Below are positions 21,836-43,767 of a stretch of 64,000 nucleotides of DNA, piece by piece (the first letter of the stretch is position 1; each line of letters begins with the position of its first letter). Origin of the DNA: a virus; the IMG/VR virus record IMGVR_UViG_3300049215_000771, positions 186,001-250,000 of that record. The stretch is one strand, 5' to 3'. The translations under genes and the position numbers were made by a program. Below the pieces are notes generated by a model. That model was given only the letters and a program-made list of their open reading frames with translations, did no database searches and was not told the origin of the DNA.

Positions 21836-21885
21836 AACTTCCCGAACCTTGTAAGGATCACCCAGGTCTTCCCTTCGGAGACACG
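21836..21885 (+). repeat. E2 intercistronic element (variant)
   Basis: TTCCCGAACCTTG then AGGTCTTCCCTTCGGAG; the first of the E2 family. It lies between a stop codon and TAGGGACC before the next ATG. The stem is weaker than in later copies. Confidence 0.6.
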
Positions 21886-21906
21886 AAACCCGTAGGGACC
21901 AAGACC

Positions 21907-22926
21907 ATGCTGACCAATCTGACCGTCATCGAAACCGACCGCCGCCCCAACACCACCAGCGTCAAGCCCCTGGACTGGTACGACTACATTCTTGTATCTT
22001 TCAGCGGCGGCAAGGATTCCGTCGCCCTCGTCCTGAAACTTCTCAAAGATGGCGTCCCGACCAGCAAGATCGTCCTGATGCACCAGCACATCGACGGCGA
22101 GCCGGGCGTCGATGCCCCCTTCATGGACTGGCCTTGCACCCAGGGCTACTGCCGGGCCTTCGCCAAAGCCCTCAACCTCAAGCTGCTGTTCCAGTGGCGA
22201 CACGGCGGCTTCGAGAAGGAAATGACCAAGAACAACGCCCGTACCGCCCCCGTCAGCTTCGAGTACCTGAACGGCGGACGAGGCACCGCTGGCGGCGTCA
22301 AAGGCAAGATCAGCACCCGCCGCATGTTCCCCCAGGTCACGGCAGACCTCAGCAAGCGCTGGTGTTCCTCCACCCTGAAGATCGACGTTGCTGCCATCGC
22401 CATCAACAACGACCCGGCCTTCAAGGGCAAGAAAATCCTGTTCCTGACCGGCGAACGCCGCCAGGAATCCGCCGCTCGCTCCAAGTACGCCGAAATGGAA
22501 CAACACCGCACCCACTCCAACAAGCGCCACGTTGACCACTGGCGCATGGTCATCGACTGGACCGAGGAACAGGTCTGGAACATCATGCAGGAATTCAACG
22601 TCATCCCCCACCCCGCCTACCGCCTGGGCTGGGGCCGGGTGTCCTGCATGGCCTGCATCTTCGGCCTCGCCGATCAGTGGGCCTCCGTCCGCAAAATCGC
22701 CCCGGAACTGTTCGCCAAGATCGGCCACTACGAAGCCGACTTCGGCAAAACCATCCACCAGGGCAAAACCGTCACCCAACTGGCCGACAAAGGCACGCCG
22801 TTCGCCGAAACCAACAACCAGGCGCTCGTCGCTGAAGCCATGAGCGAAGATTACCCCTACGAAGTCATCACAACCAACTGGACCCTCCCCTCCGGTGCCT
22901 ACAAGCACGGCGGCGGGCCTTCCTAA
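21907..22926 (+). CDS. PAPS-reductase-family (adenine nucleotide alpha-hydrolase) protein, 339 aa
   Basis: PP-loop SFSGGKDSVALVLKL at about residues 35-49, QHIDGEPG after the second strand, WCSSTLKIDV, FLTGERRQESAARSKYAE and SCMACIFGLADQW. This fits phage PAPS-reductase/DndC-like enzymes that activate a substrate with ATP and act in sulfur transfer; here no partner genes identify the pathway. E2 element and TAGGGACC precede the start. Confidence 0.75.
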   Translation: MLTNLTVIETDRRPNTTSVKPLDWYDYILVSFSGGKDSVALVLKLLKDGVPTSKIVLMHQHIDGEPGVDAPFMDWPCTQGYCRAFAKALNLKLLFQWRHGGFEKEMTKNNARTAPVSFEYLNGGRGTAGGVKGKISTRRMFPQVTADLSKRWCSSTLKIDVAAIAINNDPAFKGKKILFLTGERRQESAARSKYAEMEQHRTHSNKRHVDHWRMVIDWTEEQVWNIMQEFNVIPHPAYRLGWGRVSCMACIFGLADQWASVRKIAPELFAKIGHYEADFGKTIHQGKTVTQLADKGTPFAETNNQALVAEAMSEDYPYEVITTNWTLPSGAYKHGGGPS

Positions 22927-22941
22927 CCCTGAAAGGAACCC

Positions 22942-23052
22942 ATGTTCCGCAAACTCGTTCTCGCCTTCGCCCAGGCCATCGCCAGCCTGTTCCCGCCCCT
23001 CGTCGGCCAACGGCCCTACACCGGCCCGGATACGACCTACCAGCGATTGTAA
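22942..23052 (+). CDS. Small hydrophobic protein, 36 aa
   Basis: GAAAGGAACCC precedes ATG and the stop is followed by a terminator. FRKLVLAFAQAIASLFPPLV is a possible membrane or amphipathic helix, then a polar tail. Confidence 0.5.
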   Translation: MFRKLVLAFAQAIASLFPPLVGQRPYTGPDTTYQRL

Positions 23053-23059
23053 CACCAAA

Positions 23060-23102
23060 ACGCACGGTAACACCAACCATGTTACCGTGCGTTGTTTGCT
23101 TT
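23060..23102 (+). terminator. Rho-independent terminator
   Basis: ACGCACGGTAAC/GTTACCGTGCGT perfect 12-bp stem, 9-base loop, then TGTTTGCTTT, whose end is the next promoter's -35. Confidence 0.85.
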
Positions 23103-23128
23103 ACAAACCCCCTTCTGCGTGGTATCAT
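23100..23128 (+). promoter_or_regulatory. Promoter TTTACA-17-TATCAT
   Basis: TTTACA 23100-23105, TATCAT 23123-23128, spacer 17, GTGG before the -10. ATG follows 7 bases after, giving a leaderless mRNA. Confidence 0.85.
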
Positions 23129-23135
23129 CCCAAAC

Positions 23136-23675
23136 ATGAAACCACTCCATGCCGATCACTGGTTGTACAAACGCACCATCCGACTGTTCGGACGTGAACG
23201 CCTCGAACAGTGGAAAGACCAAATCGCTAAGTATTGGGAAAAACAACTCGAAAAAATTGACGAGGATCAACTCCTCCGTGCCCTCACCCGCCTCTACGGT
23301 CGCCGGGAAGGAAAAAAGTTGCTCCGACTCTCACGCTCCGAACAAACCCGCCGCATCGTCGCCCAGGAAGAAGCCTACCTCATCGGTCGCTTCGCCCATA
23401 AACTCGCCTCCATCGCCCAGGACCAGTCCGATAGGTTCTCCACCAACGGCCTCACCCTGGAGGAACACGACTACTCCACCGCTACCGTCATCCACGAAGG
23501 CCAACGCTACACAGTGGACGTTGAAGGACTCATCGTCATCACCGGCACCGTCACAGCTTCCCATGCCGATGGTTCCGAATCCGTCGTCAATGTGTTCTCC
23601 CGCTGGATCACCCACCCCTTCTGGCAGTACGCCCATCTCACCGCCCACTGCCCACCACCCAAATCCAAAACCTAA
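23136..23675 (+). CDS. Hypothetical protein, 179 aa, leaderless
   Basis: No ribosome binding site; the promoter puts the transcript start at the ATG. Basic helical first half (YKRTIRLFGRERLEQWKDQI, LYGRREGKKLLRLSR), beta-rich second half (TVDVEGLIVITGTVTASH). Unknown. Confidence 0.6.
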   Translation: MKPLHADHWLYKRTIRLFGRERLEQWKDQIAKYWEKQLEKIDEDQLLRALTRLYGRREGKKLLRLSRSEQTRRIVAQEEAYLIGRFAHKLASIAQDQSDRFSTNGLTLEEHDYSTATVIHEGQRYTVDVEGLIVITGTVTASHADGSESVVNVFSRWITHPFWQYAHLTAHCPPPKSKT

Positions 23676-23725
23676 TCCCCCAAGGCCAGGCCCAAATCCT
23701 GGCCCACTCCTGCGTACATATCAAC

Positions 23726-24040
23726 ATGAGCAGCTACTACCCACTCGATTCACAGAAGAAAGCCTCCTACCTCACTCCACCCGTCCAGGTTATCTACAAA
23801 TCCCCTCAACCTACCAAAAACTCCCCCAACCTCGCCCCTACCTACTCCCAACAGCCTAACAGCCCTATGATCTTCTTCCAAGGCTGCGACCCCCAATCAC
23901 GCACCGGAGCCTGGCTGCCCTTCAATACCAGTAGGTTCTTCAACCCCACACTCCAAGGCAACTGTGACCCACTCCCACCAAAATTCACTCCCTACAACAC
24001 CGTCGCCCCTATCTCCCCGCCACGCATCAATAGCTTGTAG
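23726..24040 (+). CDS. Low-complexity Pro/Asn-rich protein, 104 aa
   Basis: Rich in Pro, Ser, Asn and Gln with no obvious fold except MIFFQGCDPQ. Strong third-position C bias like its neighbours supports coding, but no ribosome binding site is visible. Confidence 0.4.
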   Translation: MSSYYPLDSQKKASYLTPPVQVIYKSPQPTKNSPNLAPTYSQQPNSPMIFFQGCDPQSRTGAWLPFNTSRFFNPTLQGNCDPLPPKFTPYNTVAPISPPRINSL

Positions 24041-24055
24041 AAAATTAACTCGAAG

Positions 24056-24062
24056 TAAATAT
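24056..24062 (+). promoter_or_regulatory. TAAATAT late-promoter-like box
   Basis: TAAATAT lies 8 bases before the ATG at 24071. The same box precedes the starts at 51232 and 55938 on the other strand. Resembles the T4 late -10 (TATAAATA). Confidence 0.4.
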
Positions 24063-24070
24063 CTACCTGC

Positions 24071-26939: not shown

Positions 26940-27012
26940 CGATATGGAGGAGTGGGTTGAGCGAATTGAACATAAGCGCCATTATCGGACGTTGAGAAAT
27001 GCGCAACAAAAA

Positions 27013-27071
27013 GCCGAGAGGCTGCCCCAACGGGTGTCGCCCAATCACCCGTTAGCTGCAAACCTCTCGGC
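27013..27071. repeat. Nested inverted repeats
   Basis: Outer GCCGAGAGG/CCTCTCGGC (27013-27021 with 27063-27071) encloses AACGGGTG/CACCCGTT (27029-27036 with 27046-27053). Confidence 0.75.
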
Positions 27072-27111
27072 GTGCTTGAATGATACTACGATTTACCGAG
27101 GTTGTAAAGCA

Positions 27112-27146
27112 CACGACCAGGAAATCTGAAAGAAATCCTGGTCGTG
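27112..27146. repeat. 11-bp inverted repeat
   Basis: CACGACCAGGA/TCCTGGTCGTG with a 13-base loop. Confidence 0.75.
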
Positions 27147-27272
27147 GCCGTGCGTCGAGAACCCATCCCGGTCCCCGATCCCTCCAGCCTATCCCACCAC
27201 CTGCCCCCTGTCCAGCAAAATCATCAACAATTTGACACTGTGCGTTTGTGCAGTATCAAAAATGAGGCGTCA

Positions 27273-27315
27273 GGTACAAAGGTTTGAAGTGGTGGTTTTA
27301 GAGATTTGTACCCTC
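27273..27315 (+). promoter_or_regulatory. E1 element
   Basis: GGTACAAA at 27273 and TTTTAGAGATTTGTACCCT ending at about 27315; full two-arm form. Confidence 0.65.
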
Positions 27316-27418
27316 CGGTCATTTTCTGCGCACGGATGTACACCAGGTTATTTGGGATAATGCCAGGGGGAGATTGAGGGGTGTTGCGCCGGGCTGGGGT
27401 TGGCTGGCAAAGGCTGTT

Positions 27419-27459
27419 TTTAGCATTTGTACAGTATTGTTTTAGGCATTTGTACCGTA
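27419..27459 (+). promoter_or_regulatory. Two E1 right halves
   Basis: TTTAGCATTTGTACAGTA followed by TTTTAGGCATTTGTACCGTA. Confidence 0.55.
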
Positions 27460-27516
27460 GGGGTTGGCTGCGCCGGGCGTGGCTGGGGTGGGGTTGCGCC
27501 GAATTGCGTTGGGAGA

Positions 27517-27553
27517 TTCCGAACCTTACGAGTTTGGGGCGGTCTTCCTGGCA
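27517..27553 (+). repeat. E2 element (degenerate)
   Basis: TTCCGAACCTTACG then GGTCTTCCTGGCAACC, leading into CATAGGGAGG before ATG 27574. Stem poorly conserved. Confidence 0.55.
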
Positions 27554-27573
27554 ACCCATAGGGAGGAATTTCG

Positions 27574-28665
27574 ATGTCGGTTCAACATTTCAAGGTGTTC
27601 TTCGGGCCGGACGATCCGTGGGGAGCGGTAGCGCCCACGGCGGACGAGCGCCGGGAGTTGGTGGAGAGTGGGTTTGCCGGTTTCATCGGCAACGAGCGGG
27701 CGATCAAGAAGCTGAAGGCGTCGGCGTTCGATGCCCTGGGCAAGCCCGACCATCTTTGCCGTGACCTGGCGTTCAGCATTTTCGGCCCGGCGTCGAGTGG
27801 CAAGACGACGCTGGCCCGGCTGTACGCCAAAACCGTCGATCTGCCCTTCGTGGAGGTTTCCCCGAAGGCGGTGAAGACGATGGACGACCTGTTCCGGGAG
27901 ATCGACCGGGTGTTGACGGTCGAGGGCGTGCCGGTGGTGGAAGTGGTCCGGCGCAACTACCATGTTCTGCCGCCCTGTGTGATCTTCATTGACGAGGTTC
28001 ACGCACTGGCGAAGGCAGTCGAGCAGGGCTTGCTGAAGGCGACGGAGTACAACGACGCCACGCTGGTCACGGAGTCCGGCAAAACGATCAACTGCCACAA
28101 TGTTTGCTGGATCATTGCCACGACGGACGAGGGGCGGCTGTTCGACGCATTCCGCACCCGGTTTTCGCCGGTCAACCTTCGCTATCTGAGCAAGGCGGAC
28201 ATTGCCAAGATCGTTCGCCTGGCTCACCCGGACTTCGACGAGGCGACGGCGGCGCTGGTTGCTCACTACAACAGCCGCATTCCCCGCAAGGCGTTGGAGT
28301 TCGCCCGTTACATGAAGTTGGTTCGGCAGATGGGCGCTGACCGCACCTGGGCGGACGTGGCGCAGGAAGTTGCCACGGATGAAGGGATCGACCAGTACGG
28401 CATGAGCGAGGTTCACCTTCGCATTCTGAAGGCGCTGGGCCAGGGTCCGGTGGCGGCAAACCGGATCGTGAATGTCGCAGGAGCGAAGAAGGAGGAAGTC
28501 GAGCGGTTCATCATGCCGTGGTTGCTGACGGTCACGGAAGACACGCCGGCGCTGGTCACGGTGACGAGCAGGGGATACACCATCACCGAGGCGGGCCTGG
28601 CCGAGTTGGACAAGCGAGGGATCGCCCATCGAGGGACGTTCGCCACGCCGAACTATCGCCCGTAG
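27574..28665 (+). CDS. RuvB-like AAA+ ATPase, 363 aa
   Basis: Walker A FGPASSGKTTLARLY at about 68-82, Walker B CVIFIDEVHAL at about 132, sensor region IIATTDEGRLFDAFRTRF with a RuvB-like arginine, and a C-terminal winged helix (GPVAANRIVNVAGAKKEEVE, then RGYTITEAG). The order matches RuvB, the Holliday junction branch-migration motor. No RuvA or RuvC is visible; it could serve phage recombination or replication. AGGGAGG site. Confidence 0.8.
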   Translation: MSVQHFKVFFGPDDPWGAVAPTADERRELVESGFAGFIGNERAIKKLKASAFDALGKPDHLCRDLAFSIFGPASSGKTTLARLYAKTVDLPFVEVSPKAVKTMDDLFREIDRVLTVEGVPVVEVVRRNYHVLPPCVIFIDEVHALAKAVEQGLLKATEYNDATLVTESGKTINCHNVCWIIATTDEGRLFDAFRTRFSPVNLRYLSKADIAKIVRLAHPDFDEATAALVAHYNSRIPRKALEFARYMKLVRQMGADRTWADVAQEVATDEGIDQYGMSEVHLRILKALGQGPVAANRIVNVAGAKKEEVERFIMPWLLTVTEDTPALVTVTSRGYTITEAGLAELDKRGIAHRGTFATPNYRP

Positions 28666-28718
28666 TTCGGCGGCTGGCCGGGGGCTGCCCACTCCTGGCC
28701 TGGGCGCAATAGCCTACT

Positions 28719-28760
28719 GGTACAAACCTTCAAGTTGATGTTTTAGAGATTTGTACCCTA
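28719..28760 (+). promoter_or_regulatory. E1 element
   Basis: GGTACAAACCTTCAAGTTGA, TTTTAGAG, ATTTGTACCCTA; full form, upstream of ATG 28777. Confidence 0.7.
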
Positions 28761-28776
28761 CGGGCTGGAGGGAAGC

Positions 28777-28932
28777 ATGAAATACATCGTGTGGGTACGG
28801 GAGAAGGGGCGTTGGGAGCCGAACGGCGACGGGCCTTTGACGCAGAAGCAGGCCGAGCGGATTGCCAAGGAAATCCGTCAGGAGTGCAACGTGCCGACGA
28901 AGGTGTTGCCGGTGGGACAAGAACCGAAATAG
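28777..28932 (+). CDS. Small protein, 51 aa
   Basis: GGAGGGAAGC precedes ATG right after an E1 box. KYIVWVREKGRWEPNGDGPL then QKQAERIAKEIRQE; beta then helix. Resembles small phage proteins starting 'YVVWTREKG'. Unknown. Confidence 0.65.
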   Translation: MKYIVWVREKGRWEPNGDGPLTQKQAERIAKEIRQECNVPTKVLPVGQEPK

Positions 28933-28940
28933 GAGGGGAT

Positions 28941-29141
28941 ATGGACCCTGTTGCTTGCATCGAGGAAGCCGAGGCGCAGATCGAATCCAACAACCCGGAC
29001 GATGCTGCCTGGGCGCTTCAGGACTATCGGGAGTGGCGGCGCAAGGGTGGATTCACCGACGCCGGCCTGGACGAGCGTGCCCGGATTGTCAACAAGGAAA
29101 TCAAGCAGACCGGGCATCCTGGGGTGAACCTGGGATTTTGA
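28941..29141 (+). CDS. Hypothetical protein, 66 aa
   Basis: AGGAGGGGAT before ATG. Helical: ACIEEAEAQIESNNPDDAAW, YREWRRKGGF, DERARIVNKEIKQ. Confidence 0.65.
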   Translation: MDPVACIEEAEAQIESNNPDDAAWALQDYREWRRKGGFTDAGLDERARIVNKEIKQTGHPGVNLGF

Positions 29142-29143
29142 TG

Positions 29144-29188
29144 AAAGTTTCCGAACCTTGCTGGCCCGGCAAGGTCTTCCATGCGGGA
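29144..29188 (+). repeat. E2 intercistronic element
   Basis: AAGTTTCCG, stem ACCTTGC/GCAAGGT (29155-29161 with 29169-29175), then CTTCCATGCGGG. Confidence 0.8.
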
Positions 29189-29197
29189 GGGGACGAC

Positions 29198-29332
29198 ATG
29201 AAGAAAACGAATCGTGTGCGTAAACATCGTAGGGACAAGAACAACGGCAAGAACGGTTGGGTGGGTGGAAATCCCCGCTACGACCGTCGCAAGGCGACCG
29301 AGGGAAAGAATCGGTCGATGGGCCGCAATTAG
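29198..29332 (+). CDS. Basic small protein, 44 aa
   Basis: GGGAGGGGACGAC before ATG. MKKTNRVRKHRRDKNNGKNG and a basic tail; likely RNA or DNA binding by charge. Confidence 0.6.
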   Translation: MKKTNRVRKHRRDKNNGKNGWVGGNPRYDRRKATEGKNRSMGRN

Positions 29333-29344
29333 GGAGGGGCTGCA

Positions 29345-35870: not shown

Positions 35871-35875
35871 GTGCT

Positions 35876-35942: not shown

Positions 35943-35970
35943 CCATCAACCCCATACGGAGAATCGACTC

Positions 35971-36363
35971 ATGGCGAAAACGATCAAGCGAAAGCCGGCC
36001 AAGAAGGTGAAGGGGCCGGATTGGGCGGCGCTCAAGGCGACGGTGCTGGCGACTCCCATCGACGTGCTGAAGAAGGCGATCCAGGTGGACGGCTGGACGA
36101 TCTACGAGCCGAGCAAGTTCACGGACGCCGGCCTGGATGCTTCGGTCGTGGCGGCGTTCTCCCGCAACATCAAAAGCGACACCCGTGACCCCAAGTCCAC
36201 GATCTTCGGGAGCCAGGGCCAGGTCATCAAGGAGTTGCAGGGCGTGTACGGCCTCGAACTGCTGGAGTTCATCGCCCGCTGCTTCGACGTGCATTCCGAC
36301 AAGTCCGGGCGTGGCTTCCGCCAGGGCCACTTGACCGAGCAGCTTTACGCCATCTGGAAGTAA
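35971..36363 (+). CDS. Hypothetical protein, 130 aa
   Basis: CGGAGAATCG before ATG. Basic start (KTIKRKPAKKVKG), then helical DVLKKAIQVDGW, ASVVAAFSRNIKSD and a C-terminal domain with GLELLEFIARCFD. Unknown. Confidence 0.65.
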   Translation: MAKTIKRKPAKKVKGPDWAALKATVLATPIDVLKKAIQVDGWTIYEPSKFTDAGLDASVVAAFSRNIKSDTRDPKSTIFGSQGQVIKELQGVYGLELLEFIARCFDVHSDKSGRGFRQGHLTEQLYAIWK

Positions 36364-36403
36364 TTTCCGAACCTCCGCTCGCCCCGGAGGTCTTCCTTGC
36401 GAG
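36363..36403 (+). repeat. E2 intercistronic element
   Basis: ACCTCCG/CGGAGGT stem directly after the TAA, CTTCCTTGCGAG. Confidence 0.8.
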
Positions 36404-36440
36404 TGACGAAACCATCAACTTGATAGGGAGGGATTGAACC

Positions 36441-36647
36441 ATGTGGAGTCCTGAATCGCTTTCCACGCTGAACGCCTTGGCCTCGAAGGTCGGCAGCCGT
36501 GAGGCACACCGGCTGTTTACCAGCCGCCTCCGGTCGGATACCGACAAGGCCAACGCCATCCTCGCCGGCCAGTCGAAGGTCTGTGACTCGTGTGGCGACG
36601 GCTGCCCGGTCGCCAGTCTCGCCGAGGCCGATTCCGAGGCAGCGTGA
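36441..36647 (+). CDS. Small Cys-containing protein, 68 aa
   Basis: TAGGGAGGGATTG before ATG. Helical part, then CDSCGDGCPVASL, a possible metal site. Confidence 0.6.
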   Translation: MWSPESLSTLNALASKVGSREAHRLFTSRLRSDTDKANAILAGQSKVCDSCGDGCPVASLAEADSEAA

Positions 36648-36648
36648 G

Positions 36649-36691
36649 AAATTTCCGAACCTCCGCTCGCCCCGGAGGTCTTCCTTGCGAG
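36649..36691 (+). repeat. E2 intercistronic element
   Basis: ACCTCCG/CGGAGGT stem, CTTCCTTGCGAG. Confidence 0.8.
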
Positions 36692-36720
36692 TGATGACAA
36701 CCATAGGGAGGATTGAAATC

Positions 36721-37068
36721 GTGACGAGCCAAACCTTCAAGCTGCCTTCGTTCCGTTCCTACGGCAACTACAGCAGCGAGAACTACGGGGCGCATTGCCT
36801 CGTGATCGACTTCGGGCCGGTGACGGTCTGGTTCAGCTACAAAACGCCCATCGCCTTTCACGTCGAGGGGCATAGCCGGGTCGTGCTGAAGAACTACTGG
36901 TCCACCACGACCGGCAAGCACCTGAACGCCATCGACGGCGGCAACAAGAAGGGCCGGGTCGATCAGGAGACGTTCGACCGGCTGTGGGCCGAGCAGGTGG
37001 AGGCAGTGTTCAACCCGCAGCCCAAGTCCGACCCGGACAGCCCCTTCAACGTGGGGGCGCTGAACTAA
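36721..37068 (+). CDS. Hypothetical protein, 115 aa
   Basis: TAGGGAGGATTGAAATC before GTG. YGAHCLVIDFGPVTVWFSYK and TPIAFHVEG, then HLNAIDGGNKKGRVDQETFD. This YG.HtL......g.~YSYqT.VAf pattern is familiar from phage proteins of unknown function. Confidence 0.65.
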   Translation: MTSQTFKLPSFRSYGNYSSENYGAHCLVIDFGPVTVWFSYKTPIAFHVEGHSRVVLKNYWSTTTGKHLNAIDGGNKKGRVDQETFDRLWAEQVEAVFNPQPKSDPDSPFNVGALN

Positions 37069-37081
37069 CGAGTACGGCATG

Positions 37082-37111
37082 GAGCCGGGCAACTTCGCCC
37101 GGCTCTTTTTT
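37082..37111 (+). terminator. Rho-independent terminator
   Basis: GAGCCGGGC/GCCCGGCTC perfect stem, loop AACTTC, six T. Confidence 0.9.
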
Positions 37112-37135
37112 GTGAAGCATCATAGGAGAGAAACC

Positions 37136-37453
37136 GTGTTCCCGACCCCGACCGACCGCCGAGGCGTGCATGGCGCTGCCCGGCCTGCCTTCACCGTCCA
37201 TCGCTTCAAGCGGACCATTTGCCTTCTGCTGAATGAGGAGATGGCCGAGGAGATCAACACCTTGCTGGTGGCGAACGAGCAACGGCTGGAGAACGCCCCC
37301 GGCCTGAAGCGTGTGCCTCCGTTCCTGTACGAGTTCACCACGCAGCTTCAGGAGGCGCTCGACCAGCCGCCCCCGGCCAAGGGTGAGAAGCCCGAAACGC
37401 TCGCTCCGGGCCGTCCCCGGCCTCGCCAAAACCCCGCTGTGAAGGCTGTCTGA
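37136..37453 (+). CDS. Hypothetical protein, 105 aa
   Basis: ATAGGAGAGAAACC before GTG; the upstream ATG at 37079 is inside the terminator. Helices (MAEEINTLLVANEQRLENA, YEFTTQLQEALDQ) then a Pro/Arg tail. No E1 box precedes it. Confidence 0.6.
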   Translation: MFPTPTDRRGVHGAARPAFTVHRFKRTICLLLNEEMAEEINTLLVANEQRLENAPGLKRVPPFLYEFTTQLQEALDQPPPAKGEKPETLAPGRPRPRQNPAVKAV

Positions 37454-37510
37454 AGTTCGGTGTGCCATGCCCAGGCACACCCTTGCGACATCCAACATAG
37501 GGGGCTTACC

Positions 37511-37705
37511 ATGACGATGAAGTACATACTCCTGAAGGTCGAGATCGAACACGAGCCGGACGCCGAACCTGATGACATTGCCGCCGAGGTCGAGGTTCAC
37601 TATGATGACACGGATGGAAGCATCACCAAGTCCGAGGTCGTTGCTGTGGGGAATTCCCCTGGCCTGCTTCGCTACATCAGCGACAAGCCGAAGCCGAAAA
37701 GTTAG
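37511..37705 (+). CDS. Hypothetical protein, 64 aa
   Basis: ATAGGGGGCTTACC before ATG. KYILLKVEIEHEPDAEPDDI with AEVEVHYDD: small alpha/beta, acidic. Unknown. Confidence 0.6.
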   Translation: MTMKYILLKVEIEHEPDAEPDDIAAEVEVHYDDTDGSITKSEVVAVGNSPGLLRYISDKPKPKS

Positions 37706-37725
37706 AGGATTGTACCTGCACTGTC
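37706..37725 (+). promoter_or_regulatory. E1 right half
   Basis: TTAGAGGATTGTACCTG directly after a stop codon; weaker version. Confidence 0.45.
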
Positions 37726-37740
37726 GGCTAAAGGTTGAGT

Positions 37741-37771
37741 GGCCCAGCCCGGCGCAAGCTGAAGCTGGGCC
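37741..37771 (+). terminator. Hairpin, possible terminator
   Basis: GGCCCAGC/GCTGGGCC stem; no T tract. Confidence 0.4.
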
Positions 37772-37785
37772 TCCCATATTCTCCC

Positions 37786-37818
37786 AAGCAGGCCAGGTCA
37801 GCCCTGGCCTGCTTCTCC
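37786..37818 (+). terminator. Hairpin, probable terminator
   Basis: AAGCAGGCCAGG/CCTGGCCTGCTT perfect 12-bp stem followed by CTCC. Confidence 0.6.
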
Positions 37819-37830
37819 CTGCGCCCAGCC

Positions 37831-37875
37831 TGTACAAATCTCAAAATATCACCATTAGACCATTGTACCCTAGCG
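37831..37875 (+). promoter_or_regulatory. E1 element (variant)
   Basis: TGTACAAATCTC ... TTAGACCATTGTACCCTAG. Confidence 0.55.
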
Positions 37876-38060
37876 GTTGCCTCCGCAACGCTCTAAGCCG
37901 AGAGGCGGGTAAACCTTGAAACCTGGATGCCAGTCCTGGCGGTAGGGGTGAGCGTGATTAGGCCAATTACACCCGACTGGCTTCAATGCCTGCATCGGTC
38001 CTGGCAGACTGGTGTGCCGTGGTGGTGTGGGTTCGAGTCCCACCGGAGGCTGCAATTTTC
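37876..38060 (+). ncRNA. Structured RNA with tRNA-like T arm
   Basis: GTGGGTTCGAGTCCCAC at about 38024-38042 is a perfect T arm, followed by CGGAGGC (38044-38050) and TGCA. GCCTCCG, its complement, is at 37879-37885, but 158 bases away, too far for a normal tRNA. GGCAGACTGGTGTGCC just upstream resembles a D arm. It may be a degenerate or interrupted tRNA, or another RNA that mimics one. Confidence 0.4.
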
Positions 38061-38068
38061 TTTGGGAT

Positions 38069-38107
38069 TTTGCGAACCTTGAAGACTTGCCAGCGTCTTC
38101 TATGCGT
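38069..38107 (+). repeat. E2 element (degenerate)
   Basis: GCGAACCTTGAAGAC ... GCGTCTTCTATGCG; stem now AAGAC/GTCTT. Confidence 0.55.
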
Positions 38108-38145
38108 AACGAGTCGAAACCATCAACCTGTAGGGAGAATCGAAC

Positions 38146-38403
38146 ATGGCGAAGTGTATCGTGACCGTGAACCCGAAGCGTGGTCGTCCGGCGATCTTCG
38201 TTGGCGTCCTGAAGACCAACATCGTCCGTCTGCTCCGGGCGCACGGCCTGGTGAAGACCCAGCGCATCCTGGCATCCGAGGGCGTCAGCGCCAAGGTCGG
38301 GGCGAAGAAGTCCCCGGTCAAGATCAGCCTGCCGACCCTGAGCAAGCTGGCGACCGAGGCCGGCATCGAGTTCAAGCGTGGTCGCCCGGCACTGGCGGCG
38401 TGA
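38146..38403 (+). CDS. Protein with two AT-hook-like motifs, 85 aa
   Basis: KRGRPAIF at residues 11-18 and KRGRPAL near the end both contain the AT-hook core RGRP with flanking bases, around a helical part (TQRILASEGVSAK, LPTLSKLATEAGI). Probably binds the minor groove of AT-rich DNA as a regulator or nucleoid-like protein. Confidence 0.55.
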   Translation: MAKCIVTVNPKRGRPAIFVGVLKTNIVRLLRAHGLVKTQRILASEGVSAKVGAKKSPVKISLPTLSKLATEAGIEFKRGRPALAA

Positions 38404-38411
38404 GCCACTAA

Positions 38412-38453
38412 GGGCGAGGGGTAGCGGTGTGGAACGCAATGACCCCCTCGCCC
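38412..38453 (+). terminator. Hairpin, possible terminator
   Basis: GGGCGAGGGG/CCCCTCGCCC; no T tract; followed by TTGCGAG and E3. Confidence 0.45.
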
Positions 38454-38463
38454 CCAAACTTGC

Positions 38464-38477
38464 GAGCTATATCTTCA
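38464..38477 (+). promoter_or_regulatory. E3 box
   Basis: GAGCTATATCTTCA before TAGGGAG and GTG 38491. Confidence 0.6.
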
Positions 38478-38490
38478 TAGGGAGAATGCC

Positions 38491-38796
38491 GTGGCTGCCG
38501 CTTTGGACAAAGAAATCAGCTTCCACCTTGACCGGGCCGCAACGCTGGCCCGTGCTGAGGTCGAGCGCCTGGCCCGCAAGCTGCTCCGGGAACACCCCAA
38601 CCTTGAAGCCTTCATCATGGCGATGGGGTTGGCGACGTTCAGCGTCAAAGGCCAGGCCGACAGCCTGGCCCTGTACGAACGGAAGTATTTCAAGCCCCTG
38701 GAAGACTTCATTGTGAAGTGGGACAGCGCCCTGGGGCTGACGGGTGATCCCATGTGGATTGAAGGGCCGGACGGCGAGATCAAAACGGAGTGGTAG
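38491..38796 (+). CDS. Hypothetical protein, 101 aa
   Basis: TAGGGAGAATGCC before GTG; the overlapping ATG frame at 38486 has poor codon usage. Helical (AEVERLARKLLREHPNLEAF) with a C-terminal WIEGPDGEIKTEW. Unknown. Confidence 0.6.
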   Translation: MAAALDKEISFHLDRAATLARAEVERLARKLLREHPNLEAFIMAMGLATFSVKGQADSLALYERKYFKPLEDFIVKWDSALGLTGDPMWIEGPDGEIKTEW

Positions 38797-38814
38797 TTAG
38801 AGGTTTGTACCCTA
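38797..38814 (+). promoter_or_regulatory. E1 right half
   Basis: TTAGAGGTTTGTACCCTA directly after a stop codon. Confidence 0.6.
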
Positions 38815-38848
38815 CAACCTGGGCAACGAACCATAGGGAGACAAGACC

Positions 38849-39091
38849 ATGAAGTTTCTGCCGACCATCACCCTGACCGATGCCGTGTATGCGGCTCTCC
38901 GCAACGGCCAGCTTCGCCTCCAGTGTGGGCAGTGGATTCGTATTCCTGGCGACCCGCCTGGCGTGACCAGCAAGCCCAGCCGCTTCGTCAAGGCGAGCCG
39001 GGTTCACCTGGACATCGTACACCCTGACGGGCCGTTCGCCACGGGCCGGGTGAGCAACGAGCGTTTCAAGACCAGGGCGAAAAATCGTTGA
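38849..39091 (+). CDS. Hypothetical protein, 80 aa
   Basis: TAGGGAGACAAGACC before ATG. LTDAVYAALRNGQLRLQCGQ, a WIRI strand and SRFVKASRVHLDIVHPDGPF. A small all-beta-like protein with a basic tail. Unknown. Confidence 0.65.
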   Translation: MKFLPTITLTDAVYAALRNGQLRLQCGQWIRIPGDPPGVTSKPSRFVKASRVHLDIVHPDGPFATGRVSNERFKTRAKNR

Positions 39092-39134
39092 AAGTTTCCG
39101 AACCTCCGCTCGCCCCGGAGGTCTTCCTTGCGAG
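39090..39134 (+). repeat. E2 intercistronic element
   Basis: ACCTCCG/CGGAGGT stem, CTTCCTTGCGAG. Confidence 0.8.
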
Positions 39135-39160
39135 CAACGACAACCATAGGGAGACAAGTC

Positions 39161-39640
39161 ATGCTGCATGATTGTTCGCACGATGGGTGCAAGGTCGGCG
39201 GCTGCATCAAGCTGGAAGTCCTGGTCGCCCCCGACTACGAGAAAGACCCGCAACGCTTCAAGTGGTTCTGTGAAGCCCACGCCGAGGCGTTCGAGGCCGA
39301 CCTGGAGAAGCGCCACGACTACGCCAAACGGGTCGAGGTCATCCCGGTCGTGGGCATGGGAGCGACGGCGGGCTATGGCAGCGACCGTTACCCGTACACG
39401 GTCATCAAGGTCAGCACCAACGGCAAGACCATCACCGTGCAGGCCGACGACTACAAGCCGGCCCCTGGCCATCACTACATCAACAACCAGGTGTATACCT
39501 ATACTCCGAACCCGCAGGGCGAGACGAAGGTTTTCACCCTCCGGGACAACGGGCGCTGGGTGTTGAGGGGCGAGAGCAAGCAGGGCGGGCTGTGCCTGGG
39601 CCTGGGCGTTCGCCGCCACTACCATGACCCGTCGTTCTGA
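39161..39640 (+). CDS. Conserved phage-type protein, 159 aa
   Basis: N-terminal Cys/His part (HDCSHDGCKVGGC, CEAHAEAFEADL) then MGATAGYGSDRYPYTVIKVS, GKTITVQADDY and a C-terminal VRRHYHDPSF. The middle-to-end motif (GDGAT...SDR.P.TVI...DPSF) is one I recall from many phage proteins of unknown function; the zinc-like N-terminus is extra. Confidence 0.65.
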   Translation: MLHDCSHDGCKVGGCIKLEVLVAPDYEKDPQRFKWFCEAHAEAFEADLEKRHDYAKRVEVIPVVGMGATAGYGSDRYPYTVIKVSTNGKTITVQADDYKPAPGHHYINNQVYTYTPNPQGETKVFTLRDNGRWVLRGESKQGGLCLGLGVRRHYHDPSF

Positions 39641-39654
39641 CGTACACTAAGACT

Positions 39655-39711
39655 TGGGGGTGGGTGGATAGTTTGCAAAAGCCCTGGGCGCAAGTCCAGG
39701 GCGAACCCCCA
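39655..39711 (+). ncRNA. Structured intergenic cassette
   Basis: TGGGGG/CCCCCA outer stem with GCCCTGG/CCAGGGC inside (39681-39687 with 39696-39702), then ACTGCG. Confidence 0.5.
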
Positions 39712-39715
39712 CTGC

Positions 39716-39736
39716 GTTAAGCCTTTGTACCCTCCA
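39716..39736 (+). promoter_or_regulatory. E1 right half
   Basis: TTAAGCCTTTGTACCCTC. Confidence 0.55.
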
Positions 39737-39774
39737 GGATGGGACGAAGGGCATCACAAAGGGAGGATGAGGAA

Positions 39775-40041
39775 ATGACGCTGAGACGGAAACTCTTCAA
39801 CGGCATTACGCTGTGGCTGGGGATGTACGCCATCACGGTGTTCATCTACTGGTTGAAGGTGGGCCACTTCTACGACGGCCTGCTGTTCGCCCTGATGACG
39901 GCGAGCGCCAAAACGGTCTGGAGCCTGGTCCACAAGGCCATCACCCACCGGGAGCCGAGCAAGGTCATCATCACCGAAGAAGCGCTGCCCACGTCGGCCC
40001 AGCTTGAGGCCGAGGTCTGTGATTGCAAAGAAGCTGCTTGA
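39775..40041 (+). CDS. DUF2061-like membrane protein, 88 aa
   Basis: MTLRRKLFNGITLWLGMYAI, TVFIYWLKVGHFYDGLLFAL, ASAKTVWSLVHKA match the short two-span DUF2061 layout as I recall it. Hydrophilic C-terminal tail with VCDC. GGGAGGATGAGGAA before ATG. Confidence 0.55.
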   Translation: MTLRRKLFNGITLWLGMYAITVFIYWLKVGHFYDGLLFALMTASAKTVWSLVHKAITHREPSKVIITEEALPTSAQLEAEVCDCKEAA

Positions 40042-40046
40042 ACGAC

Positions 40047-40130
40047 GGCACGGCCAGGCCAAGAGGTAGGCCATTCCGACAACTGGTTGCCTACGCTAGT
40101 TGTCGAAATGCTCTTGGCCCGGCACGGCCA
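40047..40130 (+). ncRNA. Structured RNA with predicted pseudoknot, flanked by direct repeats
   Basis: GGCACGGCCA occurs at 40047-40056 and 40121-40130. Between them GGCCAAGAG (40057-40065) pairs CTCTTGGCC (40111-40119), CGACAACT (40077-40084) pairs AGTTGTCG (40098-40105), and GTAGGC (40066-40071) pairs GCCTAC (40089-40094), which lies in the loop of the previous stem, making a crossing pair. Confidence 0.6.
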
Positions 40131-40131
40131 A

Positions 40132-40190
40132 AACTGGTCCTGCAAACAGGGTAAGTGGGGCGGCAGCGGGCCGTTCCCCACCAGTTTTTT
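40132..40190 (+). terminator. Rho-independent terminator
   Basis: ACTGG...GTGGGG pairs CCCCAC...CCAGT, followed by six T and GCGACTATAG. Confidence 0.75.
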
Positions 40191-40203
40191 GCGACTATAG
40201 CCC

Positions 40204-40245
40204 GGTACAAAGGTCAAGAGCTATATCTTTGACCTTTGTACCCTA
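40204..40245 (+). promoter_or_regulatory. E1 with perfect 14-bp arms around an E3 core
   Basis: GGTACAAAGGTCAA (40204-40217) and TTGACCTTTGTACC (40229-40242) are exact complements; the loop is GAGCTATATCT, the E3 core. The two element types are combined here. Confidence 0.7.
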
Positions 40246-40265
40246 TGGGGCAAAGGAGGGCTGCG

Positions 40266-40562
40266 ATGGAAACTTTCGATAAGGCCGAATGGCGGCGACA
40301 AGGGGGCATGACCCCGCACGGTCGCTACGTTCCGACAACCAGCACAGGGCGCAAGGTTGTGGCGAAAGCACACCGGCCACCCCTGAAGGGTGAGGTTTAC
40401 CTGAAGCCTTCGGGTCGGCGTGGCATCTACCTGGTGTTGACTGCTCAGAACGACTTCGCCCGGCGTTCGTACACCATCGTTCGTGTGGTCAAGGGCGAGA
40501 GCGAGGCAAGGGCGCATTGGGAACAGGCCCGGCGTGACTACCTCCGAATTACTGGAAGATAA
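40266..40562 (+). CDS. Hypothetical protein, 98 aa
   Basis: AAAGGAGGGCTGCG before ATG. RGIYLVLTAQNDFARRSYTI and VRVVKGESEARAHWEQARRD; basic. Unknown. Confidence 0.65.
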   Translation: METFDKAEWRRQGGMTPHGRYVPTTSTGRKVVAKAHRPPLKGEVYLKPSGRRGIYLVLTAQNDFARRSYTIVRVVKGESEARAHWEQARRDYLRITGR

Positions 40563-40602
40563 TTCCGAACCTTGCACGCCCAGCGAGGTCTTCCTTGCGA
40601 GG
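40561..40602 (+). repeat. E2 intercistronic element
   Basis: ACCTTGC/GCGAGGT stem with loop ACGCCCA, CTTCCTTGCGAGG. Confidence 0.75.
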
Positions 40603-40613
40603 AGGGCAGAACG

Positions 40614-40844
40614 ATGAAACAAATGGACCATGCGGCTTATCAACGCAAGTGCCGTGGTCTGCCAGAAGCGTCCCTTCGCTACATCTTGAAGGATGCGAAG
40701 GAAGCTATCGACGCCCAACCGTTCGGCGAGAACGCTGGTTACTACGCCGATGAAATCCACTACGCTGCAATGGAGTTGCGACGGCGAGGCCAGGAGGCCA
40801 GCGACCTTCCCCCACTTGTGAAGGACATAGGGATCAAATCATGA
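40614..40844 (+). CDS. Hypothetical protein, 76 aa
   Basis: GAGGAGGGCAGAACG before ATG. YQRKCRGLPEASLRYILKDA, KEAIDAQPFGENAGYYADEI, HYAAMELRRRG. The 'L.yii.Da.eA..anP....gyYaDE..YA..EL..R' pattern is common in phage and plasmid proteins of unknown function. Confidence 0.65.
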   Translation: MKQMDHAAYQRKCRGLPEASLRYILKDAKEAIDAQPFGENAGYYADEIHYAAMELRRRGQEASDLPPLVKDIGIKS

Positions 40845-41344
40845 ACGTGGAACTTGTGAAGCGTCTGTTCGCCCACTTCGCCCCCGCCCCCGAAGTCAAG
40901 ATCGACAAGTACAGCGAGGATGGCTGTTGCCCTGCCATCATCATCGGCCCCTTCACCATCAGTCAGTCGCTTACCGTCGTCAAGGGGCTGAAGGGCGACC
41001 ACGAGGTTCCCAACTACAGCCTGGACGTTCACGTTGGCGACGGCGACATTATCGACCTGGCGACTGCCACGAACTTCGCCGACGTGGTTGTGGCTGCCGT
41101 CGAGAACTACGCCGGCTGGCTGGCACGGGCTGAACTGGACCGCATCGCTGACGACGCCTATGCCGCTGACCTGGAGAGCGAGCGTCTGGCCTTGCAAGCC
41201 GCCTTCAACGAGGGGCTGGAATACTACAGGACGACTGCCCCCGGCGAGCGTAGCAAGGACGCCAACCCCTACCCCCACGGCATCGAGCATTACTACAAGT
41301 GGGCGTCCGGCTACAGCCAGGGCGAGGCGGAAGCGGTGTTTTGA
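40841..41344 (+). CDS. Hypothetical protein, 167 aa
   Basis: ATGA overlap. Alpha/beta: PAIIIGPFTISQSLTVVKGL, NYSLDVHVGDGDIIDLATAT, then helical ARAELDRIADDAYAADLESE. Unknown. Confidence 0.6.
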   Translation: MNVELVKRLFAHFAPAPEVKIDKYSEDGCCPAIIIGPFTISQSLTVVKGLKGDHEVPNYSLDVHVGDGDIIDLATATNFADVVVAAVENYAGWLARAELDRIADDAYAADLESERLALQAAFNEGLEYYRTTAPGERSKDANPYPHGIEHYYKWASGYSQGEAEAVF

Positions 41345-41358
41345 CCTTTGTACCCTGT
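41339..41358 (+). promoter_or_regulatory. E1 right half
   Basis: TTTTGACCTTTGTACCCTG overlapping the previous stop codon. Confidence 0.55.
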
Positions 41359-41370
41359 CGGTTGTCGAGG

Positions 41371-41430
41371 CCGGGCCGGACGAAAAAAGTTTCCGAACCT
41401 TCAACGTCCGGCCCGGTCTTCCTGGTGGGC
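41371..41430 (+). repeat. E2 element with relocated 12-bp stem
   Basis: TTCCGAACC is kept, but the stem is now CCGGGCCGGACG (41371-41382) with CGTCCGGCCCGG (41405-41416), so TTCCGAACC is in the loop. GGTCTTCCTGG follows. Confidence 0.65.
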
Positions 41431-41460
41431 AACGAACTCTTCAACGAAAGGCAGGTTGCG

Positions 41461-42117
41461 ATGAACACTTTCCGAGCCGGCAGCGACCAGTCCCAGCGTT
41501 TCATCAACGAGGGGCGGCGTCGTGAGAAGCAGATTGCGGACGCCTTGAAGAAACAGCACGGCCTGAACCTGGTCGAGCCGACTGACGCCGAAGACCGTTA
41601 CCAGAAGATCGACCGCTGGCTGGTCGAGGGCGACAAGCGGACGGCGGTTCAGATCAAGTACAGGGAGAGCGGCGACGACTTGCTGGTGGAAGTGTTCGAC
41701 CGTTGGCACGGTTGGGACCATCCCCGCAACAAAACGGGCCGGGACGTGGTTGGCGATAGCAAGCTGTACGCTGTGCTTCGCCTGGACCGGGAAACCGTCG
41801 TTCTCACCAGCGCCGCCATCCTCAAGGGGATTGTGCAGGAGATGGTGACGGCAGCGCAGGCGACGGGCTGGACCGTGGACCGTGGCACGCACAGCAAAGT
41901 CCTCCGCTACTTCAAGGCGGGTGGGTGCTGTGAGTTGAAGGTCCAGTCCGACCCCAACGACGGCAGGCCGAAGATGGTTGCATACATCCCGGCCAACGTC
42001 CTGATCTTCGAGCAGCAGGCCGAGGTCTACAAGGTCCGCCTGCCTGCCGACTGGTCAGGAGAGGGCAAGAAGAAGGAACGGCCACGCCGCACCGACCTTC
42101 GGGGCGGCACGAACTAG
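41461..42117 (+). CDS. PD-(D/E)XK nuclease-like protein, 218 aa
   Basis: Early Glu in RRREKQIADALKKQHGL, Asp in RYQKIDRWLVEGDKRT at about residue 50, and VQIKYRESGDD as the (E/Q)xK strand at about 63, as in PD-(D/E)XK nucleases. C-terminal half: GDSKLYAVLRLDRETVVLTS. Basic tail (KKKERPRRTDLR). Could be a phage recombination or restriction-type nuclease. Confidence 0.65.
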   Translation: MNTFRAGSDQSQRFINEGRRREKQIADALKKQHGLNLVEPTDAEDRYQKIDRWLVEGDKRTAVQIKYRESGDDLLVEVFDRWHGWDHPRNKTGRDVVGDSKLYAVLRLDRETVVLTSAAILKGIVQEMVTAAQATGWTVDRGTHSKVLRYFKAGGCCELKVQSDPNDGRPKMVAYIPANVLIFEQQAEVYKVRLPADWSGEGKKKERPRRTDLRGGTN

Positions 42118-42123
42118 GCTAGT

Positions 42124-42167
42124 AGCAGGGACAACCAGGAGCAGCGACGGCTGACTCCTGGCCCCTG
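42124..42167 (+). ncRNA. Structured intergenic cassette
   Basis: CAGGG...CCAGGAG pairs CTCCTGG...CCCTG, then CGAACGCTGCG. Confidence 0.5.
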
Positions 42168-42177
42168 CGAACGCTGC

Positions 42178-42196
42178 GTTAGACCATTGTACCCTA
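42178..42196 (+). promoter_or_regulatory. E1 right half
   Basis: GTTAGACCATTGTACCCTAG. Confidence 0.6.
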
Positions 42197-42205
42197 GTTC
42201 GATGT

Positions 42206-42219
42206 GAGCTATATCTTCA
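42206..42219 (+). promoter_or_regulatory. E3 box
   Basis: GAGCTATATCTTCA ten bases after E1, before GGAGAAAGTC and ATG 42240. Confidence 0.6.
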
Positions 42220-42239
42220 ACCTGGATATGGAGAAAGTC

Positions 42240-42887
42240 ATGGGTCGCAAACTGGTGGTGCGAATCGAACACGATTCCGACGTTGAAGTGCCGGACAGCG
42301 GGTATGACGGCTGGAAGCTGGTGTCCTTCGGACGCCGGCACAGCAACTACGAAGACCCCGACAACTACATCAAGGGCGTGAACGAGTTCCGGGAAATCAC
42401 CCCGGCCAACATCGGCCTTCGCCGCAAGCTGAACGTCGGCCTGGCCTTCTGGCTGTCCTACTACGAACACAGCCTTGGTTGCTGGTCCCTCAAGGGCGAA
42501 GGTCCGCAATGCCAGTGGGACACGGCGCAACTGGCCGGCATCCTGCTGTGGACCGGCAAGCCCGGCGACATTGGAGCGAAGACCCTGGAGGATCGGGCGA
42601 AAGATGCTCGCTGCTTCCTGGAGAGCTACAACGATTGGGCTAACGGCAACTGCTACTGGTACAGCGTCGAGAAAACGGACGGCACGGACGTTGAGAGCGT
42701 CGGCGGGTTCATCGGCGAAGAAGCTGTGAACGAGGCGCTGGCCGAAGTCCTTGAGGCCGGCGACGTTGTGACCGTCGAAGGTGACGCCGCCTGGACCTTC
42801 GACGCACCGGAAGGCGTCGAAGTGGTGGACGAACACGAGGAGGACGAGGAGGAGGAAGCGACGGTCAGCGACGGTGCAGGCATCTGA
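42240..42887 (+). CDS. Hypothetical protein, 215 aa
   Basis: GGAGAAAGTC directly before ATG 42240. KLVVRIEHDSDVEVP, YDGWKLVSFGRRHSNYEDPD, then a helical middle (LGCWSLKGEG, LLWTGKPGDIGAKTL) and a very acidic tail (DEHEEDEEEEATVSD). The 'H..H.rY.lGD' type pattern of a phage family is suggested but not certain. Confidence 0.6.
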   Translation: MGRKLVVRIEHDSDVEVPDSGYDGWKLVSFGRRHSNYEDPDNYIKGVNEFREITPANIGLRRKLNVGLAFWLSYYEHSLGCWSLKGEGPQCQWDTAQLAGILLWTGKPGDIGAKTLEDRAKDARCFLESYNDWANGNCYWYSVEKTDGTDVESVGGFIGEEAVNEALAEVLEAGDVVTVEGDAAWTFDAPEGVEVVDEHEEDEEEEATVSDGAGI

Positions 42888-42895
42888 CACGACAA

Positions 42896-42926
42896 GCCCC
42901 AGGCTGGCCCGGCCTGGGGCATTTTG
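42896..42926 (+). terminator. Rho-independent terminator
   Basis: GCCCCAGGC/GCCTGGGGC, then ATTTTGGG. Confidence 0.8.
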
Positions 42927-42940
42927 GGAAATCCCCATCA

Positions 42941-42982
42941 GGTACAAACTTTCAAGTTGATGTTTTAGGCCATTGTACCCTA
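42941..42982 (+). promoter_or_regulatory. E1 element
   Basis: GGTACAAACTTTCAAGTTGA, TTTTAGGCCATTGTACCCTA. Confidence 0.7.
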
Positions 42983-43138
42983 GCGGTTGGCCCGATGGCT
43001 GCCGGTGGCACGGTGGCATCGGACAACCTTCTGACGGCTCTAGGGGTAAGGGGCCGTATGGGGTTGCTGTGCTTGTGCGTTCGTCGCCACAACGACGCAT
43101 CGGCCTGCAATCTTTGCAACCATCCGTCAGAATTCTTG
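42983..43138. other. Gene-free leader, 156 bases
   Basis: An open frame from 42995 runs through the following E2 element, so it is probably not a gene. Short hairpins only. Confidence 0.4.
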
Positions 43139-43182
43139 AAAGTTTCCGAACCTTGTTGGTTCGGCGCAGTCTTCCTTGCGGG
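43139..43182 (+). repeat. E2 element (imperfect stem)
   Basis: TTTCCGAACCTTGTTGG ... GCGCAGTCTTCCTTGCGGG. Confidence 0.65.
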
Positions 43183-43209
43183 TAGGACAGTCATACGGAG
43201 AATCGAGTC

Positions 43210-43575
43210 ATGTTGAAGCATCGTGTTGCGGTTATCATCCCCTCCACCGTCAAGGGCAACGAGCCGGCTCCTGCCGACCTGGTTGCCAAGTGGGTCAAGG
43301 CGGCGAAGATCAAGCTGGGAACCCTGTTCGGTGGCTTCACTGCCACGAAGGGCGAAGGCGGCTGGGTTTCCCCCGTCCACGGCTTGATTGAAGAGCCGGT
43401 CACTGTTGTCGCCGCCCACTGTGACGAAGAGGCTTTCAACCGTCACGCCCAGGACGTTCGTGAATTCGCCTTGACCGTCGCCGTGGCGCTGGAGCAGGAA
43501 GCCGTTTCCGTCCAGTTCGACAACACGCTGGAATTCGTCAGCGTGCCGCCCGCCGTCGCCGTCAACGTGGTCTGA
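43210..43575 (+). CDS. Hypothetical protein, 121 aa
   Basis: ACGGAGAATCGAGTC before ATG. LKHRVAVIIPSTVKGNEPA, KIKLGTLFGGFTATKGEGGW, EEPVTVVAAHCDEEAFNRHA. The 'FGG.T...G.W......~~E~' pattern is one I recall from phage proteins. Unknown function. Confidence 0.65.
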   Translation: MLKHRVAVIIPSTVKGNEPAPADLVAKWVKAAKIKLGTLFGGFTATKGEGGWVSPVHGLIEEPVTVVAAHCDEEAFNRHAQDVREFALTVAVALEQEAVSVQFDNTLEFVSVPPAVAVNVV

Positions 43576-43579
43576 TCGG

Positions 43580-43610
43580 AAGGCCAGGGTCGCCCACCCT
43601 GGCCTTTGTT
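43580..43610 (+). terminator. Rho-independent terminator
   Basis: AAGGCCAGGGT/ACCCTGGCCTT perfect stem, then TGTTGG. Confidence 0.8.
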
Positions 43611-43624
43611 GGTAATACCCTACA

Positions 43625-43665
43625 GGTACAAAGGCTGAAGCGTTGCTTTAGAGGTTTGTACCCTA
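43625..43665 (+). promoter_or_regulatory. E1 element
   Basis: GGTACAAAGGCTGAAGCG, CTTTAGAGGTTTGTACCCTA. Confidence 0.7.
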
Positions 43666-43721
43666 GTGGTCGGGTGAAAACCCTCGCAACAACAATCCTG
43701 GGCGGCGAGCGCCGGCCCTTG

Positions 43722-43767
43722 TAAGTTTCCGAACCTTGTGGTCTTGTGAAGCGTCTTCCCTGCGAAG
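43722..43767 (+). repeat. E2 element (degenerate)
   Basis: AAGTTTCCGAACCTTGTGG ... GCGTCTTCCCTGCGAAG. Confidence 0.6.

Follow-up and report, generated by a model that had tools for sequence, protein, structure and literature searches.

Phage-encoded sigma factors with a promoter class of their own are already known: gp28 and gp34 of SPO1 (PMC4496689) and the sigma factors of group 2 jumbo phages (PMC7824862) redirect the host RNA polymerase to phage promoters. In bacteria, the extracytoplasmic function (ECF) sigma factors sigmaE and AlgU read the consensus GAACTT-N16/17-TCtgA (PMC10651043). Inverted repeats near phage genes have been described in the SAS/ESAS of cluster K mycobacteriophages, where ESAS comprises 17-bp inverted repeats beside the 13-bp GGGATAGGAGCCC (PMC3203893), and in the promoters of the phage N4 virion RNA polymerase (PMC4496689). 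Hardly anything is known about gene regulation in uncultivated huge phages. Here we analyse E2, a repeated intergenic element in a 64,000-nucleotide window (positions 186001–250000) of the 532,729-bp virus record IMGVR_UViG_3300049215_000771, called G000 below. E2 is probably a class of bacterial-type two-part promoters, and some of its copies carry a hairpin in addition.

An earlier note on this DNA had described E2 as about 19 intercistronic hairpins, sited between a stop codon and a ribosome site, with arms that change while pairing is kept, and took them as strong evidence for a functional RNA. Pattern scans, with counts far above chance, confirm the family. Exact matches in the window to GAACCT-N14-17-GTCTTC numbered 18, every one on the plus strand (0.07 expected), and a GTCTAA variant at 30180 raises the tally of plus-strand copies to 19, spanning 21836–43758. 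The pattern AGGTCTTCCTTGCGAG, with up to three mismatches, gave 15 window matches against 0.67 expected, and AAGTTTCCGAACCT gave 30 against 6.1. A 20th copy occurs on the minus strand at 57511–57542, beyond the range of the earlier note, with GTCTAT as its second block; it lies within the upstream reading frame and before the gene at 57123–57488 (minus strand). The copies usually follow a stop codon and precede a Shine-Dalgarno-like site, as reported.

The invariant part of E2 is the bipartite motif TTCCGAACCT-N15/16-GTCTTC. For the whole of G000, our statements are based on pattern searches of the record and on retrieved stretches. The two-hexamer core has 32 exact matches in the record, 28 on the plus and 4 on the minus strand, and its reversed control has none. 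With up to three mismatches, the longer pattern returned 40 matches at N15 (control, 10) and 23 at N16 (control, 7). In a de novo dyad count over 160 kb outside the window, the E2 block pair came out on top, beside a sigma70-like TTTACA-N13-GTGGTA that one relative likewise has in abundance. When copies are aligned, the blocks are near-invariant and the 15–16 spacer positions hold approximately 0 bits; as the aligned copies were gathered by their blocks, the independent evidence is the match count against controls. Many copies in G000 have unrelated spacers and no canonical stem. Altogether, the record appears to hold about 35–40 promoter copies. Among other viral contigs, the exact pattern gave a single match per contig only, and none in one search with the true spacing; megablast against known phages gave no match.

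In its blocks, E2 comes close to the sigmaE/AlgU promoters. Both have GAAC in the −35 block, TCT in the −10 block and equal spacing (16–17 counted to TCT), and the −35 sequences differ by one mismatch, GAACTT against GAACCT, with GAAC invariant in E2. E2 differs in having CCT rather than CTT at the third-from-last −35 positions, in its TTCC extension and in a −10 block that ends in TC rather than GA; it also occurs genome-wide in a phage in which no ECF sigma was recognised. In the mechanism we propose, the first block, (TTC)CGAACCT, would act as the −35 element and GTCTTC (variants GTCTAA and GTCTAT), 15–16 bp from it, as the −10 element. Transcription would start approximately 7 nt past GTCTTC and yield a short leader with a Shine-Dalgarno site. 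The reader would be host RNA polymerase together with a phage-encoded sigma factor (candidate gene, G000:145441–146442), which would then drive its own gene and some 35–40 others.

Proteins of G000 led us to the related contigs G001–G009, among them G002 (340 kb) and G006 (46 kb). What relatives have kept is the pair of blocks at its spacing, and no one stem. The copy at 30716–30750 lies upstream of a 536-amino-acid (aa) gene at 30790–32400, and an equivalent motif, GAACCA-N13-CTCTCTCGG or GAACCA-N13-CTCTCTAGG, occurs just before the orthologues in G002 and G006. A search with GAACC[AT]-N13-CTCTCTAGG found 15 plus-strand and no minus-strand matches in G002, 4 and none in G006, and no match in controls, in G000 or in the remaining seven relatives. 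From GAACC to TCT, the offset is 17 in the N15 form of E2, in the common form of G002 and G006 and in the AlgU consensus. The motif is common to reciprocal-best-hit gene pairs above expectation (3 pairs, P = 0.0016), and both members of a RuvB-like gene pair in G000 and G002 likewise carry it, the G000 copy (27513–27547, N15, without a canonical stem) lying upstream of the RuvB-like AAA gene at 27574–28665. The top dyad in G002 was a sigma70-like class with an extended −10, TTTACA-N12-CGTGGTAxxAT, which was also among the top dyads of G000 outside the window.

The E2 copy at 145348 of G000 precedes the gene at 145441–146442, whose 333-aa product we infer to be a divergent sigma factor. Its orthologue in G002 (40% identity) likewise sits right after a copy of the motif, and both genomes have a ParB-like gene before it, a designation read from the sequence, for which Pfam gave no match. 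A third orthologue, in LR756511.1 (595 kb; 31% identity), has TTCGAACC-N15-GTCTCT upstream; because the pattern was defined after the site was seen and matches only once in that record, this site is suggestive only. A search for orthologues found none beyond these three. Matches to Sigma70_r2 and to PHROG sigma families were weak but consistent across all three, the best PHROG sigma factor match reaching 3.8e-8. By hhalign against other phage sigmas, region 2 aligned with a probability of 46, and a weak Fis-type helix-turn-helix match for region 4 was obtained with one orthologue only. The motif before this gene in G000 and G002, together with the similar single site in the third phage, suggests an autoregulated phage sigma regulon. 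As in SPO1 and the group 2 jumbo phages, a phage sigma would redirect host polymerase to its own promoters; unlike in those systems, the candidate belongs to another, very divergent lineage, the motif is sigmaE-like, and in two phages or more it occurs at the sigma gene itself. If borne out, the lineage of the sigma, its sigmaE-like motif and the overlaid hairpins would be new. If this reading is correct, sequence alone has revealed a promoter class together with the candidate sigma that reads it, some 35–40 genes form one regulon, and equivalent gene sets can be predicted in related genomes.

Several observations weigh against an autoregulated promoter class of this kind. The Sigma70_r2 matches are near or below the cut-off and individually weak (best in Pfam 4e-5; 0.041 for the G000 member), and the AlphaFold2 model of the candidate sigma has low confidence (pLDDT 50). 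In the 200 kb of LR756511 inspected, we found no wider motif set. The resemblance to sigmaE promoters would fit a host factor equally, many copies lie within co-directional gene runs where an RNA element would fit too, and a plain promoter does not account for the self-complementarity of the copies, described below.

Other sigma-like proteins are encoded in these genomes. G000 has two more, a T4 gp55-like late sigma and a 322-aa RpoD/RpoS-like protein (L049, G000:413540–413710, minus strand; L050, G000:90692–90868, plus strand), and G002 has at least four, one of them FliA/WhiG-like; no ECF sigma scored above the cut-off in G000. Each of three was considered as the cognate factor and set aside. 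The RpoD/RpoS-like protein is found in phages without the motif, which is not enriched in the examined part of G005; the gp55-like protein has region 2 only and showed no link to the motif; and for L189, a sigma-like protein of G002, a search run without a positive control found no G000 homologue.

We then considered the hairpins themselves. A stem of 7–10 bp separates the conserved blocks in 13 of the 19 plus-strand copies, and one copy has a relocated 12-bp stem. The arms quoted in the earlier note are all present: ACCTTGC/GCAAGGT, ACCTCGC/GCGAGGT, ACCTCCG/CGGAGGT, ACCTTAGACC/GGTCTAAGGT (30186–30195/30205–30214) and the relocated CCGGGCCGGACG/CGTCCGGCCCGG (41371–41382/41405–41416). Eleven of the 19 copies, however, are near-duplicates of two spacer alleles, so that few arm changes in the window set are independent. 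Allele A, TGCTGGCCCGGCRAG with its CGC variant, occurs at 29145–29179, 29591–29625, 30716–30750 and 32623–32657 (the last two in the GCGAG variant) and at 35259–35293 (CGC/GCG arm); allele B, CCGCTCGCCCCGGAG, occurs at 33381–33415, 34380–34414, 35584–35618, 36361–36395, 36649–36683 and 39092–39126. These copies are often part of a longer duplicated cassette extending to GACAACCATAGGGAG. In the window, E2 was probably multiplied as cassettes duplicated along a cluster of small genes; in the relatives, the place is mostly taken by a different element, TGTACCCTA.

The other plus-strand copies are more varied. Core pairing is weak at most in the RuvB-associated copy 27513 and in the two N16 copies, 21836–21871, upstream of a PAPS-reductase-like gene (21907–22926), and 43723–43758. 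Copies 38066–38100 and 43140–43174 have only a shifted pairing of 6–7 bp, in the former between GAAGAC in the spacer and the second block GTCTTC, and in the latter between GGTTCGG in the spacer and CCGAACC of the first block. The 10-bp stem ACCTTAGACC/GGTCTAAGGT belongs to copy 30180–30211, with second block GTCTAA, and copy 40559–40593 has its own spacer with a 7-bp stem that includes one G-U pair. In copy 41371–41421, whose block begins at 41387, the relocated stem encloses the first block. Across the record, the register of the stem varies, lying within the spacer, using a block as an arm (38066, 43140, 93222), surrounding the first block (41371, 145348) or falling downstream (61575), and a core stem is missing from approximately half of the diverse copies. 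A pseudoknot or switch, proposed between the loop CTCGC and a downstream GCGAG, is not supported, as that loop occurs in one spacer allele only (6 copies) and two of the six read GCGGG downstream.

The copies are nonetheless self-complementary above chance. Shuffling the spacers gave a Stouffer score of −5.1, and recombining 5′ and 3′ half-spacers between copies gave z = −4.4, falling to −2.85 without the A- and B-type spacers; the relatives gave −1.9. A comparison with the upstream regions of other genes shows a modest excess (mean z −1.21 vs −0.58, P = 0.002). Covariation counts in the full window set are strong, and they stem mainly from the two duplicated alleles. Among 13 diverse copies, the pair 14–28 fails in 9, changes on both sides of the named stem number 5 against 3.6 in shuffles (122 of 500 shuffles were as high), and the covariation score is weakly positive (13 of 500). 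A consensus stem kept by covariation, as in Rfam-type families, was not found across these 13 copies, and Rfam 15 at the gathering threshold gave no family match in the window. The compensatory changes claimed for the arms appear in the window set and are at shuffle level in diverse copies. This serves as a warning that a handful of duplicated promoter-spacer alleles can produce most of such changes in intergenic repeat hairpins. Selection for a hairpin is best seen at the sigma gene's own copy, which has perfect 14-bp repeats around a 17-nt loop in both G000 (CGCCAACCACAGCG/CGCTGTGGTTGGCG) and G002 (AACCAAGAGAGCGC/GCGCTCTCTTGGTT), with unrelated arms. We conclude that the hairpins are real, yet not every copy needs one. 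Of the functional-RNA claim, a regulatory-looking, self-complementary family stands, but an RNA hairpin as the conserved unit is not supported: the blocks are invariant and the spacer is nearly information-free. The hairpins would be an optional overlay on the promoters and, at a guess, may tune promoter opening or punctuate read-through messages. Tentatively, this could be a huge-phage lineage in which an unrecognised, highly divergent sigma governs its own gene and genome-wide sigmaE-like promoters, with spacers and edges selected for variable-register hairpins as a position-free, fast-evolving second regulatory layer.

The position of the copies relative to genes bears on the alternatives. 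Many start 0–7 nt past a stop codon, and some overlap the upstream open reading frame (128193, as well as window copy 57511–57542). From the end of a copy to the same-strand start codon there are 18–61 nt (median 34); the boundaries of individual genes, called with a simple codon-usage script, are approximate. Two copies in G000 look like the head of a transcription unit without any other recognised promoter motif: 150018, located 73 nt after a divergent gene, and 99296, located after a terminator-like hairpin. Copies 144104, 255745, 261884 and 389791 lie just downstream of TTTACA-type sites, in a tandem-promoter-like arrangement.

The main alternative reader of E2 promoters is a host extracytoplasmic sigma of the sigmaE/AlgU type, in which case the phage would be exploiting the envelope-stress factor of its host. 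We consider this unlikely: block sequence and spacing resemble the AlgU consensus and G000 has no clear ECF sigma, but a reader encoded by the phage accounts better for a motif that stands ahead of the phage's own divergent sigma gene in two phages, and the second block differs among related phages (GTCTTC vs CTCTCTAGG), which suggests a co-evolving phage factor. A functional stem-loop in intercistronic mRNA, acting in processing, stability or translation control with the blocks as flanking single strands bound by protein, is a rather improbable account. The stem excess in all three comparisons, the covariation counts of the full set, the 14-bp stems with unrelated arms at the sigma gene and the usual position right after a stop codon speak for it. 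Against these stand the missing core stem in about half of the diverse copies, the shifting register, both-side changes at shuffle level, relatives that retain blocks and spacing rather than stem, the lack of an Rfam match, and copy 150018, which heads a divergent unit. A likeness to SAS/ESAS is limited: these too recur ahead of some of the non-structural genes, have variable spacers and an unproven function, and include inverted repeats in about half of the cases, but the E2 consensus is an asymmetric two-block motif without GGGATAGGAGCCC, which places it outside ESAS.

In many copies, palindromes are placed between the −35 and −10 blocks or around them, and a hairpin between the −35 and −10 elements of an E. 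coli promoter makes that promoter supercoil-dependent (PMC4496689). Extrusion of the spacers as DNA hairpins, giving supercoil-sensitive promoters or direct recognition as at phage N4 early promoters, could build on this. N4 promoters share with E2 a promoter-associated inverted repeat whose stem bases are free to vary, but they require a defined short stem and a 3-base loop. In E2, neither stem nor loop nor register is fixed, and many copies are stemless, which makes extrusion very unlikely and sets E2 apart from the N4 class. A role of the hairpins in intrinsic termination, or in stabilising the 3′ end of the upstream gene, seems more far-fetched, even with copies that begin just past a stop codon and a pyrimidine-rich stretch after the stem. 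In 27000–45000 no plus-strand E2 copy has the G+C-rich stem and T run of an intrinsic terminator or was called terminator-like, although true T-tailed terminators are found nearby (for example 32417–32448); a terminator would have no use for the first block; and structure is independent of the adjacent upstream gene (P = 0.53), so that a role as 3′ ends of those genes was rejected.

Further elements accompany E2 in the window and in the relatives. A tRNA T-arm-like stretch (GGGTTCGAGTCCCACC) lies at 38025–38060, upstream of copy 38066; ARAGORN called none in the window. In L153–L156, a conserved stretch upstream of the 536-aa homologue resembles the 3′ portion of a group I intron and is a candidate for one. 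In G006 (L161:3340–3690), the leader of the 536-aa gene is present in two copies 273 bp apart and holds a tRNA-like sequence, TGTACCCTA and an E2-type motif, a doubling that suggests how cassettes spread. Between 27274 and 46000 of the window we observed a second repeated element, GGTACAAA...TTTGTACCCTA (for example at 28720, 30494, 32469 and 34017), several copies of which directly follow T-tailed or G+C-rich terminators. Its core is TGTACCCTA, which occurs 56 times in G002 (mostly in 265–293 kb), 56 times in G006 (1–27 kb) and 27 times in G005, nearly always on one strand and before small genes, and it may be a shared, single-block promoter-like element.

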